DNA of 13,964 bases from Pseudomonadota bacterium (GTDB lineage Bacteria > Pseudomonadota > Alphaproteobacteria > Reyranellales > Reyranellaceae), in assembly GCA_023436825.1 (NCBI GenBank), contig JAEZHS010000371.1, positions 1 to 13,964 of the forward strand, read 5' to 3'. Positions 4,343 to 10,792 of the stretch are shown here, piece after piece. The notes below the pieces were generated by a model. That model ran no database searches, was not told the origin of the DNA, and worked only from the letters and a program-made list of their open reading frames with translations. The position numbers and the translations under genes are program-made. Position 1 is the first letter of the stretch. Each line of letters starts with the position of its first letter.

Positions 4343-5248
4343 ATGCCGCCTGCCGCGCTTCCCGACTTCAGCGCCCGTCAGCTCGAGGCGGTCCTGGCAC
4401 TGGTCGAGTATGGCAGCTTCGTCGCCGCCGCGGCCCGCCTGCGCATCTCCCAGCCGGCTTTGACGCGGGCCGTGAAACGGCTGGAAACCGAGCTTGGCGT
4501 GCGCCTGTTCGACCGCACGACGCGCCGCGTGCAGGTCACTGCCGCCGGCCGCGAGTTCGCTGCGGTCGCCGAGCGCATGTTGGCCGACCTCGGCATCACG
4601 GTGCAGAGCGTGCGGGAAGTGGCGCAGGAACGGCGCGGCCTGGTCGTTCTGTCGAGCGTCATGTCGGTGGCAGGGGCGGCCCTGCCGCGCCTGATCGCTG
4701 CTTATCGCGCCGATCGGCCGGGCGTGGAGATCCACATCCGCGAAAGCGTTCATGGATCGGTGCTCGAGGACGTGCGCAGCGGCGTCGCCGATTTCGCCTT
4801 GGGCTATGTCGACGAGCTGCCCGATTTTGCCGTCGGCACGGCGCTCGGCCGCGAGACGTTCTGTGTCGTGACCTCGGCCCGCCACAGGCTCGCCAACCGC
4901 CGCAAGCTCGGCCTGTCCGACCTCGCCGACCAGCCGATCGTGGCGCTGCCCACCGATTCGCGCACCCGGCGCACCATCGATGCGGCGGCGGCGATGGCGG
5001 GCGTACCATTGCGCCAGATGGTGGTCGTCACGCAGATCGCCACCTTGCTCGGCCTGGTCGCGGCCGACGTCGGCATCGGCATCGTGCCGCGCGGCGCCGT
5101 GCCGGCCGGCCGTAATTTGCGCGCGGTGCCACTCGAGCCGCGCCTGGTGCGACGCATCGGCGTGATCACCCTGCGCGAACGCGAGCCGACGCCGGCCGCC
5201 GCGGGATTCCTGGCATTGTTGCGGCGCGAGTGGCCGCGGCAGGATTGA
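4343..5248 (+). CDS. LysR-family transcriptional regulator
   Basis: A 301-residue LysR regulator of standard length. The winged helix-turn-helix occupies about residues 10-68 (R-Q-L-E-A-V-L-A-L-V-E-Y-G-S-F then A-A-R-L-R-I-S-Q-P-A-L-T-R-A-V-K-R-L-E, and L-F-D-R-T-T-R-R-V). The effector-binding domain follows from about residue 95 with two alpha/beta subdomains (A-D-F-A-L-G-Y, then L-V-A-A-D-V-G-I-G-I-V-P). It sits directly upstream of, and in the same direction as, the selenoprotein operon, and it diverges from the small membrane protein at 4258. The natural inference is that it controls one of these, with an unknown small-molecule inducer. No good ribosome binding site precedes ATG 4343, so translation may be from a very short leader. 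Confidence 0.93.
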   Translation: MPPAALPDFSARQLEAVLALVEYGSFVAAAARLRISQPALTRAVKRLETELGVRLFDRTTRRVQVTAAGREFAAVAERMLADLGITVQSVREVAQERRGLVVLSSVMSVAGAALPRLIAAYRADRPGVEIHIRESVHGSVLEDVRSGVADFALGYVDELPDFAVGTALGRETFCVVTSARHRLANRRKLGLSDLADQPIVALPTDSRTRRTIDAAAAMAGVPLRQMVVVTQIATLLGLVAADVGIGIVPRGAVPAGRNLRAVPLEPRLVRRIGVITLREREPTPAAAGFLALLRREWPRQD

Positions 5249-5334: not shown

Positions 5335-6399
5335 GTGCAGCTTTCTTCGCGGACTTACGACGCGGACAATATCGCCGCGGTCCAGGAGCTCTATCACAGC
5401 AACGGCTGGACCGACGGCCTGCCCATCGTGCCGCCGACCGCCGATGCGGTGCAGGCCTGCCTCGACTGGGCGATGATGCCGCCCGACCAGCTCATCGGCA
5501 TCGAACCGGTGCGCGGCCTTGCGGTCACGGCCGAGAAGCTCGCCGTCAATGCCGTGATGGCGGGCTGCCTGCCCATGCATTTCCCGGTCGTCATCACCGC
5601 CTGGACGGCGATGATGCAGGACGACTTCCTGATGCATGGCGCCACGGCCAGCACCGGCGGCTGCGCCGTGCTGGTGGTGCTGAACGGCCCGATCAGGGTC
5701 GAGCTCGGTGCCAGCGGTGGCTTCAATGCGCTGGGCAACAGCGATCGCGCAACGGCCGTGATCGGCCGCGCCATCCGGCTCTGCCTGATCAACCTGATGG
5801 ACGTGCGGCCGGGCGCCATCGACCGCTCGACCTTGGGTCATCCCGGCAAGTTCAGCTACTGCGTGGCCGAGGATGAGGAGGACACGACCTGGCTGTCGCT
5901 TGCCGAGCAGCGCGGCATCCCGAAAGAGGCTTCGGCGGTGACGGTGATGGCGGCAGGCGCGCCGCGTCAGCTCATGAATGAGTGGACGACCAGGCCCGAG
6001 GAGATCCTCGAGACCTTTGCCGCCGAGATGCGCGCCAATCTGCGGCACTATTCGATCCATCCCGGCAACTACGCGCTGATCATTCCCAAGCAGCTGCGCG
6101 AGCACCTGCAGGCCGCCAAGTGGAGCAAGACCGACATCGCCAACTTCATCCATGAGCGGGCACGCATCCATCGCCGCGAATGGGCCGAGGTCGGCAAGGG
6201 CGCCGTGGTGCGCGACCGCGGCGACAGCGTTTATCCGGCGATGGACTCGCCGGACCAGCTCTTGGTCGTCGCCGCGGGCGGTCCCGCCGGCGGCTTCGGC
6301 GCCGTCATTCCCCCGTGGCTCGGCAACAAGAGCCATGCCGTCACCATGGCCATCGGCGCCTGCGTCGACTGCGAGCCGCCCAAGAAGGAGCAGAGGTAG
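5335..6399 (+). CDS. Conserved protein of unknown function, operon partner of the UGSC selenoprotein
   Basis: A 354-residue soluble protein with no signal peptide or membrane segment. Near the N-terminus is a striking N-G-W-T-D-G-L-P-I-V-P-P-T motif (residues 23-35). Further on come M-H-G-A-T-A-S-T-G-G-C-A-V-L-V-V-L-N-G-P-I and a Gly/Ala-rich segment A-A-G-G-P-A-G-G-F-G-A-V-I-P-P-W. The end is C-V-D-C (Cys343, Cys346) followed by a charged tail. I recall proteins with this G-W-T-D-G-L-P motif as conserved hypotheticals in actinobacteria and proteobacteria, but I know no biochemical role. The GTG start has GGAGGA 5 nt upstream. The stop is 3 nt before the selenoprotein start, so the two are almost certainly translated together. 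A complex or shared redox reaction with the Sec protein is inferred from this pairing only. Confidence 0.85.
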   Translation: MQLSSRTYDADNIAAVQELYHSNGWTDGLPIVPPTADAVQACLDWAMMPPDQLIGIEPVRGLAVTAEKLAVNAVMAGCLPMHFPVVITAWTAMMQDDFLMHGATASTGGCAVLVVLNGPIRVELGASGGFNALGNSDRATAVIGRAIRLCLINLMDVRPGAIDRSTLGHPGKFSYCVAEDEEDTTWLSLAEQRGIPKEASAVTVMAAGAPRQLMNEWTTRPEEILETFAAEMRANLRHYSIHPGNYALIIPKQLREHLQAAKWSKTDIANFIHERARIHRREWAEVGKGAVVRDRGDSVYPAMDSPDQLLVVAAGGPAGGFGAVIPPWLGNKSHAVTMAIGACVDCEPPKKEQR

Positions 6400-6402
6400 A
6401 TC

Positions 6403-6927
6403 ATGACGTTCCGTGTCCTCGACCCCACACCGGAAAAGGCCCCGCCGGCCGGCCAGCTTGCACCGCGGCTCGCCTCGCTCGAAGGCAAGACCATCGGCTT
6501 CATCTCCAACGGCAAGGAAGGCACCAAGGGCTTCTTCGCCCATCTCGACCGCCTGCTGCGCGAGGAACATGGCGTGGCGAAGGTGGTGATGCGCACCAAG
6601 TCGAACTACAGCGCGCCGGCCGATGCCCACATCGTCACCGAGATCAGGAACTGGGATGCAGTGATCTCCGGCATAGGGGATTGAGGAAGCTGTTCATCGT
6701 GCAGTCTGCACGACTCCGTAACAGCTGAACGCCTCCTGGTCCCCGCCTTCAGCGTCATGACCGAGCGGTTCGCGAGCGCCGCCGAGCTGATGAGCCGCGT
6801 GCTGGGCATGCCTGATTACCGATTTGCCACGATCGGCCATCCGGTCAGCAGCGCGACGGATGCCGGCCTGGAGGTGATGGCACGGCTCGCCATCGAGCAG
6901 GGCAAGGCGATGCTGGTGAGGGCGTAA
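6403..6927 (+). CDS. UGSC-family selenoprotein (in-frame TGA at 6682-6684 read as selenocysteine)
   Basis: Read through the TGA at 6682-6684, this is a 174-residue protein with Sec at residue 94. Before the TGA come G-K-T-I-G-F-I-S-N-G-K (28-38) and W-D-A-V-I-S-G-I-G-D (84-93). After it come G-S-C-S-S-C-S-L-H-D-S-V-T-A-E-R, a Val/Pro strand, a helix (F-A-S-A-A-E-L-M-S-R-V-L-G-M-P), then I-G-H-P-V-S-S and a final helix, ending at TAA 6925-6927. The U-G-S-C motif at a strand-loop-helix position is the hallmark of the UGSC (seleno)protein family. U-x-x-C is a redox-type pair, and U-x-x-C-x-x-C recalls the Sec motif of glycine/proline reductase B-type selenoproteins. A fold-level link is my inference. 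The start ATG is 3 nt after the partner's stop, with GGAG and AGAGG in the partner's last codons. Read as an ordinary stop, the gene would lose its C-terminal half, including Cys97 and Cys100. The substrate is unknown. Confidence 0.92.
6688..6726 (+). promoter_or_regulatory. Bacterial SECIS hairpin for Sec insertion at UGA 6682-6684
   Basis: The lower stem AGCTGTT (6688-6694) pairs with AACAGCT (6720-6726), 7 of 7. The upper stem TCGTGCA (6697-6703) pairs with TGCACGA (6707-6713), 7 of 7, around loop GTC (6704-6706). An asymmetric internal loop CA / CTCCGT lies between the stems. The apical loop is 19 nt after the UGA, inside the usual bacterial window of about 16-37 nt. The tip UGCA-GUC-UGCA is nearly the E. 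coli fdhF SECIS tip UGCA-GGUC-UGCA (from memory), where the loop G and U contact SelB. The codons under the hairpin (TCA, AGT, GTA, ACA, GCT, GAA) end in A or T unlike the rest of the gene, as expected if RNA structure constrains them. Confidence 0.88.
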
Positions 6928-7097
6928 CTCTTCGTTCTTCGCAGCCTCGCCGACGCATCATGATTCAAGCTCCTCTTCCCACCAGAGGTAGGGGGAGTAT
7001 GAGTTGTATCGCTGCCAGGAATTGCCTCAGGAACCTCCCCGCAACCATTGCGTTGGTCTTGCATGCGTTGGTTGTGCAGACGAACAGGGAGACACCC

Positions 7098-7322
7098 ATG
7101 AGGCCGCTCGTCATCTTCGGCGCGCTGCTGATTGCCATCGGCATTGCAGGACTGGCGATCGACAACATCACTTTCACCGAAAAACGCACGGTCGTTGACG
7201 CCGGTCCGCTGAAGGTCACAGCCGATCAGCAGCGCACCATTCCCGTTCCCAGCATCGTCGGTGTGATCGCAATCGTCGTCGGAGGCGGCATGCTGTTCTT
7301 CGATCGCCGGGCAAGAAGCTGA
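7098..7322 (+). CDS. Small two-helix membrane protein (DUF3185-like)
   Basis: A 74-residue protein with membrane segments at about residues 3-21 (P-L-V-I-F-G-A-L-L-I-A-I-G-I-A-G-L-A-I) and 51-68 (P-S-I-V-G-V-I-A-I-V-V-G-G-G-M-L-F-F). Between them is a periplasmic-type loop containing V-D-A-G-P-L-K-V-T-A-D-Q-Q-R-T-I-P. The I-T-F-T-E-K/V-V-D-x-G-P/A-D-x-x-x-T-I-P-x-P pattern matches small membrane proteins I recall as DUF3185; the role is unknown. GGGAGA 5 nt before ATG 7098 sets the start; upstream in-frame starts lack this and would add an odd Cys/Arg-rich stretch. The 170 nt between the selenoprotein stop and this gene contains no other feature I can support. Confidence 0.8.
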   Translation: MRPLVIFGALLIAIGIAGLAIDNITFTEKRTVVDAGPLKVTADQQRTIPVPSIVGVIAIVVGGGMLFFDRRARS

Positions 7323-10097: not shown

Positions 10098-10442
10098 CTA
10101 GGGCAACTCCAGCCGCACGCACACCGCGGCGCTGGCGATCACCGCCGGATCGTTGTTCTCGGGATCGGCCACGTCGAGGCCGCCCTTGACCGCCTTCACC
10201 GTGACGATGCCGTGTGGCAGCGACGCGCGCACCTTCTCGAGGTCGACCTTGTCGGGCTGCTGCACGCCGATCGTGACGTCGACGAACATGCCGGTCTTGG
10301 GGTTGACCTTGAGGCTGCGGATCATGGCGAGCGAGCTGTGATGCAAGGCGTCCTGCACGGCACGCAATGCCGCCTTGGTATAGTCGCCGCCGTGCAGGTC
10401 GTTGCCGGTGCCGAGCTCGAGGATCACGCGTTTCGCGGGCAT
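10098..10442 (-). CDS. Lin0512-family protein, second of a tandem pair
   Basis: A 114-residue protein similar along its length to the gene immediately upstream (10454-10792). Shared elements include K-R-V, G-G-D-Y-T-K-A-A, the I-G-V-x-x-P-D-x-V-D strand-turn and L-P-H-G. L-E-L-G-T-G-N-D-L-H-G-G-D-Y-T-K-A-A-L-R-A is the family's N-terminal signature as I know it. Lin0512 proteins are small and conserved, and their activity is unknown to me. ATG 10442 has GGGAGG 5 nt upstream. It lies 11 nt after the first paralogue and 16 nt before the GST start. Two copies in one operon suggest a heteromeric pair. Confidence 0.85.
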   Translation of the reverse strand: MPAKRVILELGTGNDLHGGDYTKAALRAVQDALHHSSLAMIRSLKVNPKTGMFVDVTIGVQQPDKVDLEKVRASLPHGIVTVKAVKGGLDVADPENNDPAVIASAAVCVRLELP

Positions 10443-10453
10443 CGCAGCCTCCC

Positions 10454-10792
10454 TTACAGGTCGAGCCGGACGACGGCGGCCGCCTGGGCGATCACCGTCT
10501 TGTCCGTGCCGGCTTCGTTGGGGATTTCCAACCCGCCTTCGACCACCTTGATCGTGCCTGTGCCGTGCGGCAGCACCGCCAGCACCTGCTGGGTGTCGAC
10601 CTGGTCGGGCTTCGGCACGCCGATCAGCACCTCGACCTGCATGTCGTCGCTCGACTTGCCGACCGCCGTGGCGACCGTGAGCGAGTTGTGCCACAGCGCG
10701 TCGCGCAGCGCGCGCACCGCGGCCTTGGTGTAGTCGCCGCCGCGGATGTCGGTGCCCATGCCGATCTCGAGCGCCACTCGTTTGAGCGCCAT
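10454..10792 (-). CDS. Lin0512-family protein, first of a tandem pair
   Basis: A 112-residue protein beginning M-A-L-K-R-V-A-L-E-I-G-M-G-T-D-I-R-G-G-D and continuing Y-T-K-A-A-V-R-A-L-R-D-A-L, then a strand-rich middle (V-E-V-L-I-G-V-P-K-P-D-Q-V-D) and L-P-H-G-T-G-T-I-K-V-V-E-G-G-L. It has no signal peptide or membrane segment. The strong ribosome binding site AGGAGG before ATG 10792 confirms the start. It follows the TctC-type binding protein by 15 nt. The function of the family is unknown to me, and association with solute uptake here is from context only. It is closer to the family consensus at its start than the second copy. Confidence 0.87.
   Translation of the reverse strand: MALKRVALEIGMGTDIRGGDYTKAAVRALRDALWHNSLTVATAVGKSSDDMQVEVLIGVPKPDQVDTQQVLAVLPHGTGTIKVVEGGLEIPNEAGTDKTVIAQAAAVVRLDL

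Follow-up and report, generated by a model that had tools for sequence, protein, structure and literature searches.

The 13,964-nucleotide contig JAEZHS010000371.1 of the Reyranellaceae assembly GCA_023436825.1, hereafter the window, carries a full-length gene of the UGSC family at 6403..6927 on the forward strand, in which the in-frame UGA codon at 6682..6684 is very likely decoded as selenocysteine (Sec). Immediately upstream lies a gene of an unnamed family (5335..6399), which seems to be a near-obligate companion of UGSC genes, a pairing that seems new. Judging from profile comparisons of the sequences, UGSC also seems to share a distant origin with GrdB and PrdB, which are the Sec subunits of glycine reductase and D-proline reductase; this relation likewise seems new. 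The two proteins probably form a two-subunit selenoenzyme working by analogy with GrdB/PrdB.

A UGSC-family gene with an in-frame UGA

The frame opens with ATG at 6403, contains one in-frame TGA (6682-6684) and closes with TAA at 6925-6927, with 93 codons ahead of the TGA and 80 sense codons past it. Read through, it gives a product of 174 residues (...GIGD-U-GSCSSCSLHD...), in which the U/C-G-S-C motif of the family is present as UGSC at residues 94-97 and residue 94 is the predicted Sec; an ordinary open reading frame (ORF) listing stops at the TGA and returns a 93-residue protein only. A preliminary description of this DNA had given the same coordinates, the U-G-S-C-S-S-C stretch after G-I-G-D and the 93-residue product of a normal gene call, all of which proved exact. 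It had also noted GC-rich third codon positions beyond a downstream hairpin, and the GC contents at codon positions 1/2/3 agree, with 0.62/0.46/0.84 in codons 1-93 and 0.67/0.50/0.84 in codons 105-174 vs 0.55/0.66/0.54 past the TAA. By itself, an open frame past a TGA is weak evidence in GC-rich DNA. PF24696 (UGSC family), however, spans residues 4-171 of the read-through product with 154.7 bits (E = 3.3e-45; Pfam gathering cut-off 25), and the family name in the preliminary description was correct; the family has been in print since 2008 (PMC2398784), where 255 Sec vs 21 Cys forms were reported from GOS marine metagenomes.

The codon at the site is TGA in all eight relatives aligned to the window. 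The ratio of nonsynonymous to synonymous substitution rates (dN/dS) is 0.07-0.31 before the UGA (eight pairs) and 0.09-0.33 past it (computable for seven of the eight pairs, one being saturated), or 0.09-0.34 past the hairpin alone; by these substitution ratios the frame past the UGA is under purifying selection. Against the two closest relatives, the first ten codons after the UGA show zero changes, and synonymous changes number 15 and 16.5 in the next 69 codons. A chance open frame is ruled out by the family match over the full length, the retention of the TGA in 8/8 relatives and the dN/dS of 0.09-0.34 past it, and since the TGA is conserved in other assemblies, the sequencing error that the preliminary description had considered is refuted.

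UGA also occupies the site in all 76 UGSC genes found beside relatives of the partner gene in a genome contig collection, a set biased toward close relatives of the window's partner gene, and the residues past the UGA include invariant positions in the UGSC alignment. The search for Cys in place of the TGA, suggested earlier, succeeded, with Cys at the site in 120 of 126 motif-bearing database proteins (a count that includes P0001, the window's own read-through product, with C standing for U). The remaining six, the metagenome proteins P0003, P0004, P0006, P0007, P0012 and P0022, have Arg, Trp, Gly or Ser there, each one base change from UGA, and may represent errors or natural loss of Sec.

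Selenocysteine machinery in the genus

The preliminary description had proposed a search for selA, selB, selC and selD. All four genes are present in the nearest genome examined (G001, genus Reyranella), which is not the window's own assembly but shares its neighbourhood, with 95-99% protein identity for UGSC, the partner and a LysR-type regulator; selA, selB and selC (anticodon UCA) are grouped on contig C54, and selD is on C69. Among 25 genomes of the genus, selA exceeds the cut-off in 23, SelB in 24, tRNA-Sec (71-76 bits) in 23 and selD in 25, and ARAGORN finds a tRNA-Sec with anticodon TCA in all four loci scanned. RF01852 also matches in 14/14 control genomes; only its 71-76-bit matches and the TCA anticodon were used because other tRNAs score with this model. 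UGSC is present in two to five copies in 25/25 genomes of the genus. Sec use, which had been called notable for an alphaproteobacterial genome, is thus routine in this genus.

A conserved SECIS-like hairpin downstream of the UGA

Bacterial selenocysteine insertion sequence (SECIS) elements are hairpins that closely follow the UGA and have a conserved G in their apical loop. A stem-loop of this kind lies at 6697..6713 on the forward strand, with the loop GUC (6704-6706) starting 19 nt past the UGA. Taken by itself, the hairpin of the window has no unusual stability (z -0.72 and z -1.12 in two fold tests), and the support for it comes from comparison among relatives. For this, 112 distinct sequences were picked by a motif pattern fixing several residues, giving 70 distinct hairpin regions. 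In all 70 the apical loop opens with G and then U, though the Ser/Cys codon there could end otherwise, and 94% of the stem cells are paired, vs 5-60% with the 3' arm shifted out of register. Three of the seven stem pairs beat all 1000 shuffles, including a C-G to G-C exchange that accompanies Cys-to-Trp and Leu-to-Phe changes; the other four are no better than their own shuffles, and the outermost pair is formed in only 71%. The shuffle test overstates independence because the hairpin sequences are related. The UGA with the following 45 nt folds more stably than its recodings with synonymous codons (mean z -1.27, n = 112, vs -0.44 for 560 control windows). Of three Cys forms available as DNA, two were folded, and neither has the GU-loop hairpin. 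Within the window itself, neither ARAGORN nor Rfam (gathering thresholds) gave a match.

A near-obligate partner gene

The partner gene (5335..6399, forward strand) encodes 354 amino acids, and its stop codon ends 3 nt ahead of the UGSC start. Its product has a confident AlphaFold2 model (pLDDT 91) and two nearly invariant Cys, C78 and C176; His101 and Thr107 are conserved as well. At least 6234 related proteins are present in the protein collection, and 84 members of the family searched against Pfam and NCBIfam gave no convincing match (best E 0.011). The preliminary description was silent on this gene, as it was on any relation to GrdB/PrdB.

UGSC and the partner co-occur in the same 26 of 41 genomes around G001, and the same four of 299 genomes drawn from the phylum have both. 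When pairing is defined as a partner on the same strand, at most 400 nt upstream or 3 kb downstream of UGSC, 96 of the 98 UGSC genes in the 26 genomes have a partner alongside, in the order partner-UGSC (64 pairs), UGSC followed by two partners (29) or UGSC followed by one (3). The two partnerless genes are on G019:C219, at the contig start, and on G007:C37. Among the best 80 of at least 570 partner loci from the contig collection, with titles that include Proteobacteria, Chloroflexi, Acidimicrobiia, Rokubacteria, Binatia, Myxococcota, SAR324 and Acidobacteriota, UGSC is present in 75; four of the five misses stop at a contig end. The fifth, L141 (Chloroflexi, JACPQN010000081.1), does not, and no UGSC gene was detected in its 8.9-kb locus. 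UGSC lies on the opposite strand from the partner in L128, and Cys-form UGSC genes with a partner exist as well, such as those of G182 and G003:C32.

In the database proteins P0203 and P0185, a single reading frame covers the partner plus a portion of UGSC. UGSC has also been described as fused to an 'Unknown_1' domain (PMC2398784), which may be the same protein as the partner. Beyond this fusion, no passage cited here from PMC2398784, PMC13188914, PMC9312934, PMC5029168 or PMC7539508 ties UGSC to a partner gene. A second operon type, in which UGSC (U-G-S-C-S-S-W-S-F) is followed by two tandem partner paralogues, was observed in L053, L060, L065 and L069, which suggests a three-gene complex.

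Probable remote homology to GrdB and PrdB

Among 48 UGSC members scanned, 21 match TIGR01917 (GrdB; best E 1.1e-4), 15 match TIGR04483 (PrdB) and 14 match NF040794. Comparison of UGSC with PrdB-like profiles by hhalign gave an E-value of 7.2e-5 over 90 columns in a Sec-to-Sec register, and 5.8e-5 in a second comparison. With the motif masked, the same columns were aligned (E = 2.5e-5), and none of 200 column shuffles scored as high. A circularly shifted UGSC profile, in which the aligned block stays mostly whole, keeps scores of 26-36, and the reversed profile scores 15. The comparison set comprised 15 of the 17 PrdB-like matches from a TIGR04483 search of the 299 phylum genomes, the two weakest (L167 and L168) being dropped, and its likeness to GRDB was checked on one member, L188, which reaches 23.4 bits with PF07355 (cut-off 22). 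A PF07355 search of the same 299 genomes found five. In the passages of the five papers named above, none relates UGSC to GrdB/PrdB.

Within the 299-genome sample, PrdB-like genes with an in-frame UGA in U-P-V-C were also observed in Reyranella itself, two in each of the two genomes that represent the genus there: L188 (G001:C69:2384-3007) and L191 (G001:C16), and L189 and L190 (both G017:C1).

The AlphaFold2 model of UGSC (pLDDT 92.7) shows alternating strands and helices, with five strands and Sec after the third. The fold-search matches listed are flavodoxin-like, receiver, TIR, PurE and lumazine synthase proteins; a thioredoxin-family protein is not among them, but a fold is not ruled out by a weak or absent match. 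The predicted structure seems closer to flavodoxin-like/Rossmann-type folds than to the thioredoxin fold presumed in the literature, where UGSC is treated as thioredoxin-like in passages of PMC2398784 and PMC13188914; this, too, seems new.

Proposed mechanism and alternative explanations

The pairing, the conserved residues and the remote profile homology are observed; the complex of UGSC and its partner, its chemistry and its substrate are inferred. In the proposal for D-proline reductase given in PMC3091704, the substrate is held on the pyruvoyl group of PrdA, the Sec of PrdB attacks, a Cys resolves and the enzyme is re-reduced. In the window's system, the stem-loop at 6697-6713, given its conserved parts, would act as a bacterial SECIS that recruits SelB with Sec-tRNA(UCA). 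The partner protein might then hold a small substrate, a step proposed by analogy only, because the partner shows no likeness to PrdA/GrdE models (no such family is among the Pfam/NCBIfam matches of 84 partner members at E up to 1). By homology, Sec94, which the model places just ahead of a helix, would use its selenol for nucleophilic attack on an electrophilic carbon in the substrate. The resulting selenium adduct would be resolved by Cys97 of U-G-S-C, and the selenenyl-sulphide so formed would be reduced by a thiol donor.

Several observations besides this lack of PrdA/GrdE likeness weigh against the proposed decoding, pairing or mechanism. The gene is filed under PF24696, not under the NCBIfam equivalog NF041046, because its NF041046 score of 112.5 bits is under the naming cut-off of 125. 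The sel genes were searched in relatives' genomes, not in the window's own assembly. UGA-bearing UGSC copies also occur in two genomes short of sel genes, namely G020 (89% complete), with no selA, selB or selC over the cut-off, and G037 (77% complete, another genus), with no SelB or tRNA-Sec over the cut-off; missing contigs likely explain both gaps. L184 (G007:C37:28000-42000) holds a full-length, UGA-containing UGSC gene with no partner detected in 14 kb, and six of 133 partner matches have no UGSC within 4 kb. As for the homology, the window's own protein matches no GrdB/PrdB model, only some relatives doing so, and the relatives P0014, P0111 and P0118 score 13.4-16.6 bits, under the curated cut-offs of 602 (TIGR01917) and 300 (TIGR04483). 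The hhalign probability is 63-66% (75% with the motif masked), and with an alignment dominated by Cys forms it falls to 5% (E = 0.0079). The TIGR04483 search of the 299 genomes found 14, none over the PrdB cut-off, and the comparison set is PrdB-like, not clostridial PrdB/GrdB.

Four alternatives were considered. The best surviving, though still unlikely, is that UGSC and its partner form a thioredoxin-like Sec thiol oxidoreductase or peroxidase, not a substrate-cleaving reductase. UxxC motifs are typical of redox proteins, and a passage of a 2026 review (PMC13188914) groups UGSC with thioredoxin-fold proteins, but the fold matches listed for the confident UGSC model are flavodoxin-like/Rossmann-type, the profile relatives are GrdB/PrdB, and no thioredoxin family is among the 25/30 families listed for 48 members at E up to 1. 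Considerably less probable is a role of the pair in the binding or detoxification of a metal or metalloid compound, in which Sec would serve as a ligand and reductive cleavage would not be catalysed. The further Cys after the Sec/Cys motif, the several copies per genome and the nearly invariant C78 and C176 of the partner would suit such a role; however, no metal-resistance family is found among the ten neighbour-cluster representatives or the window genes scanned, and the recognised neighbours are mainly catabolic and transport genes.

The last two alternatives concern the codon itself, and both are highly improbable. That the UGA is an ordinary stop, leaving a 93-residue protein and a decayed remnant, would accord with the standard ORF listing, with the many database entries that are halves of about 95-130 residues and with the unremarkable stability of the window's hairpin alone, but the region past the UGA is under purifying selection and has invariant residues, the UGA is conserved where a remnant would drift, and Sec genes are present in the nearest genome examined. 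Insertion of an amino acid other than Sec at the UGA (Trp or Cys, through suppression or a variant genetic code) would fit the Trp, Arg, Gly or Ser of the six metagenome proteins but not the Cys of the other 120, the use of TGA as the normal stop of four of the 11 other window genes examined, or the SECIS-like hairpin and the tRNA-Sec with anticodon UCA.

A two-subunit selenoenzyme comparable to GrdB/PrdB is preferred. On a broader view, to which we give slightly less than even credence, UGSC and its partner could make up a widespread third branch within the glycine/D-proline reductase selenoenzymes, in the form of a two-subunit Sec reductase (three-gene in some operons) of Proteobacteria, Chloroflexi and Actinobacteria. 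Each of the two to five copies per Reyranella genome might then have a substrate of its own. The near-obligate partner and the remote tie to reductases of known chemistry turn an orphan family into a testable two-protein enzyme. The partner also offers an annotation marker, as a partner-family gene predicts a neighbouring gene, often with a UGA, that is halved by gene callers.

Genomic neighbourhood

A LysR-type regulator (PF03466 and PF00126), possibly a local regulator, is encoded at 4343..5248 on the forward strand. The LysR-linked operon of the preliminary description stands in part: the gene is present and its synteny is kept in the genus, but outside the genus the link was found at one locus only, L099, among those compared. 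Neighbours recurring in the genus are gamma-glutamyltransferase, a luciferase-like monooxygenase, LysR, glutathione S-transferase (GST), two Lin0512 genes, a TctC receptor and DoxX. Across the best 80 partner loci, the ten neighbour-cluster representatives include CoA-transferase III, short-chain dehydrogenase/reductase (SDR), major facilitator superfamily (MFS), TctC, amidohydrolase, acyl-CoA dehydrogenase and similar proteins. The most widespread neighbour cluster is present in 11 of the 80 loci, so no third gene recurs with the regularity of the pair. The catabolic neighbours hint at a small carboxylic acid or amine as the substrate.

Two further features of the window were observed. The two tandem Lin0512-family genes lie at 10098-10792 on the minus strand, beside a TctC-type receptor; both are present in six of eight distinct syntenic loci, and the remaining two loci stop there or earlier. 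A 120-residue ORF follows UGSC at 6960-7322, is present in six of the eight distinct syntenic loci compared and has no Pfam match.

Comparison with known systems

The window protein shares with the UGSC family (PF24696, NF041046) a full-length match and the U-G-S-C motif, and differs from the family as published in that its score lies under the NF041046 cut-off and in that the partner gene was not described in the passages of PMC2398784 except as the fused 'Unknown_1'. With GrdB/F/H, selenoprotein B of glycine, sarcosine and betaine reductase (PF07355, TIGR01917), it shares UxxCxxC, the motif named for GrdB in PMC13188914, and the profile matches to 21 of 48 UGSC members are weak but significant, far under the cut-off. 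UGSC is a single domain of 174 residues, whereas GrdB of C. sticklandii has 436 residues (PMC3091704), and the partner has no match to GrdE. As for PrdB of D-proline reductase (TIGR04483), Sec is aligned to Sec in PrdB-like proteins of Proteobacteria, although those compared carry U-P-V-C where UGSC has U-G-S-C. PrdB works with a second subunit, PrdA (PMC3091704), as UGSC has its partner, but the partner shows no match to PrdA.
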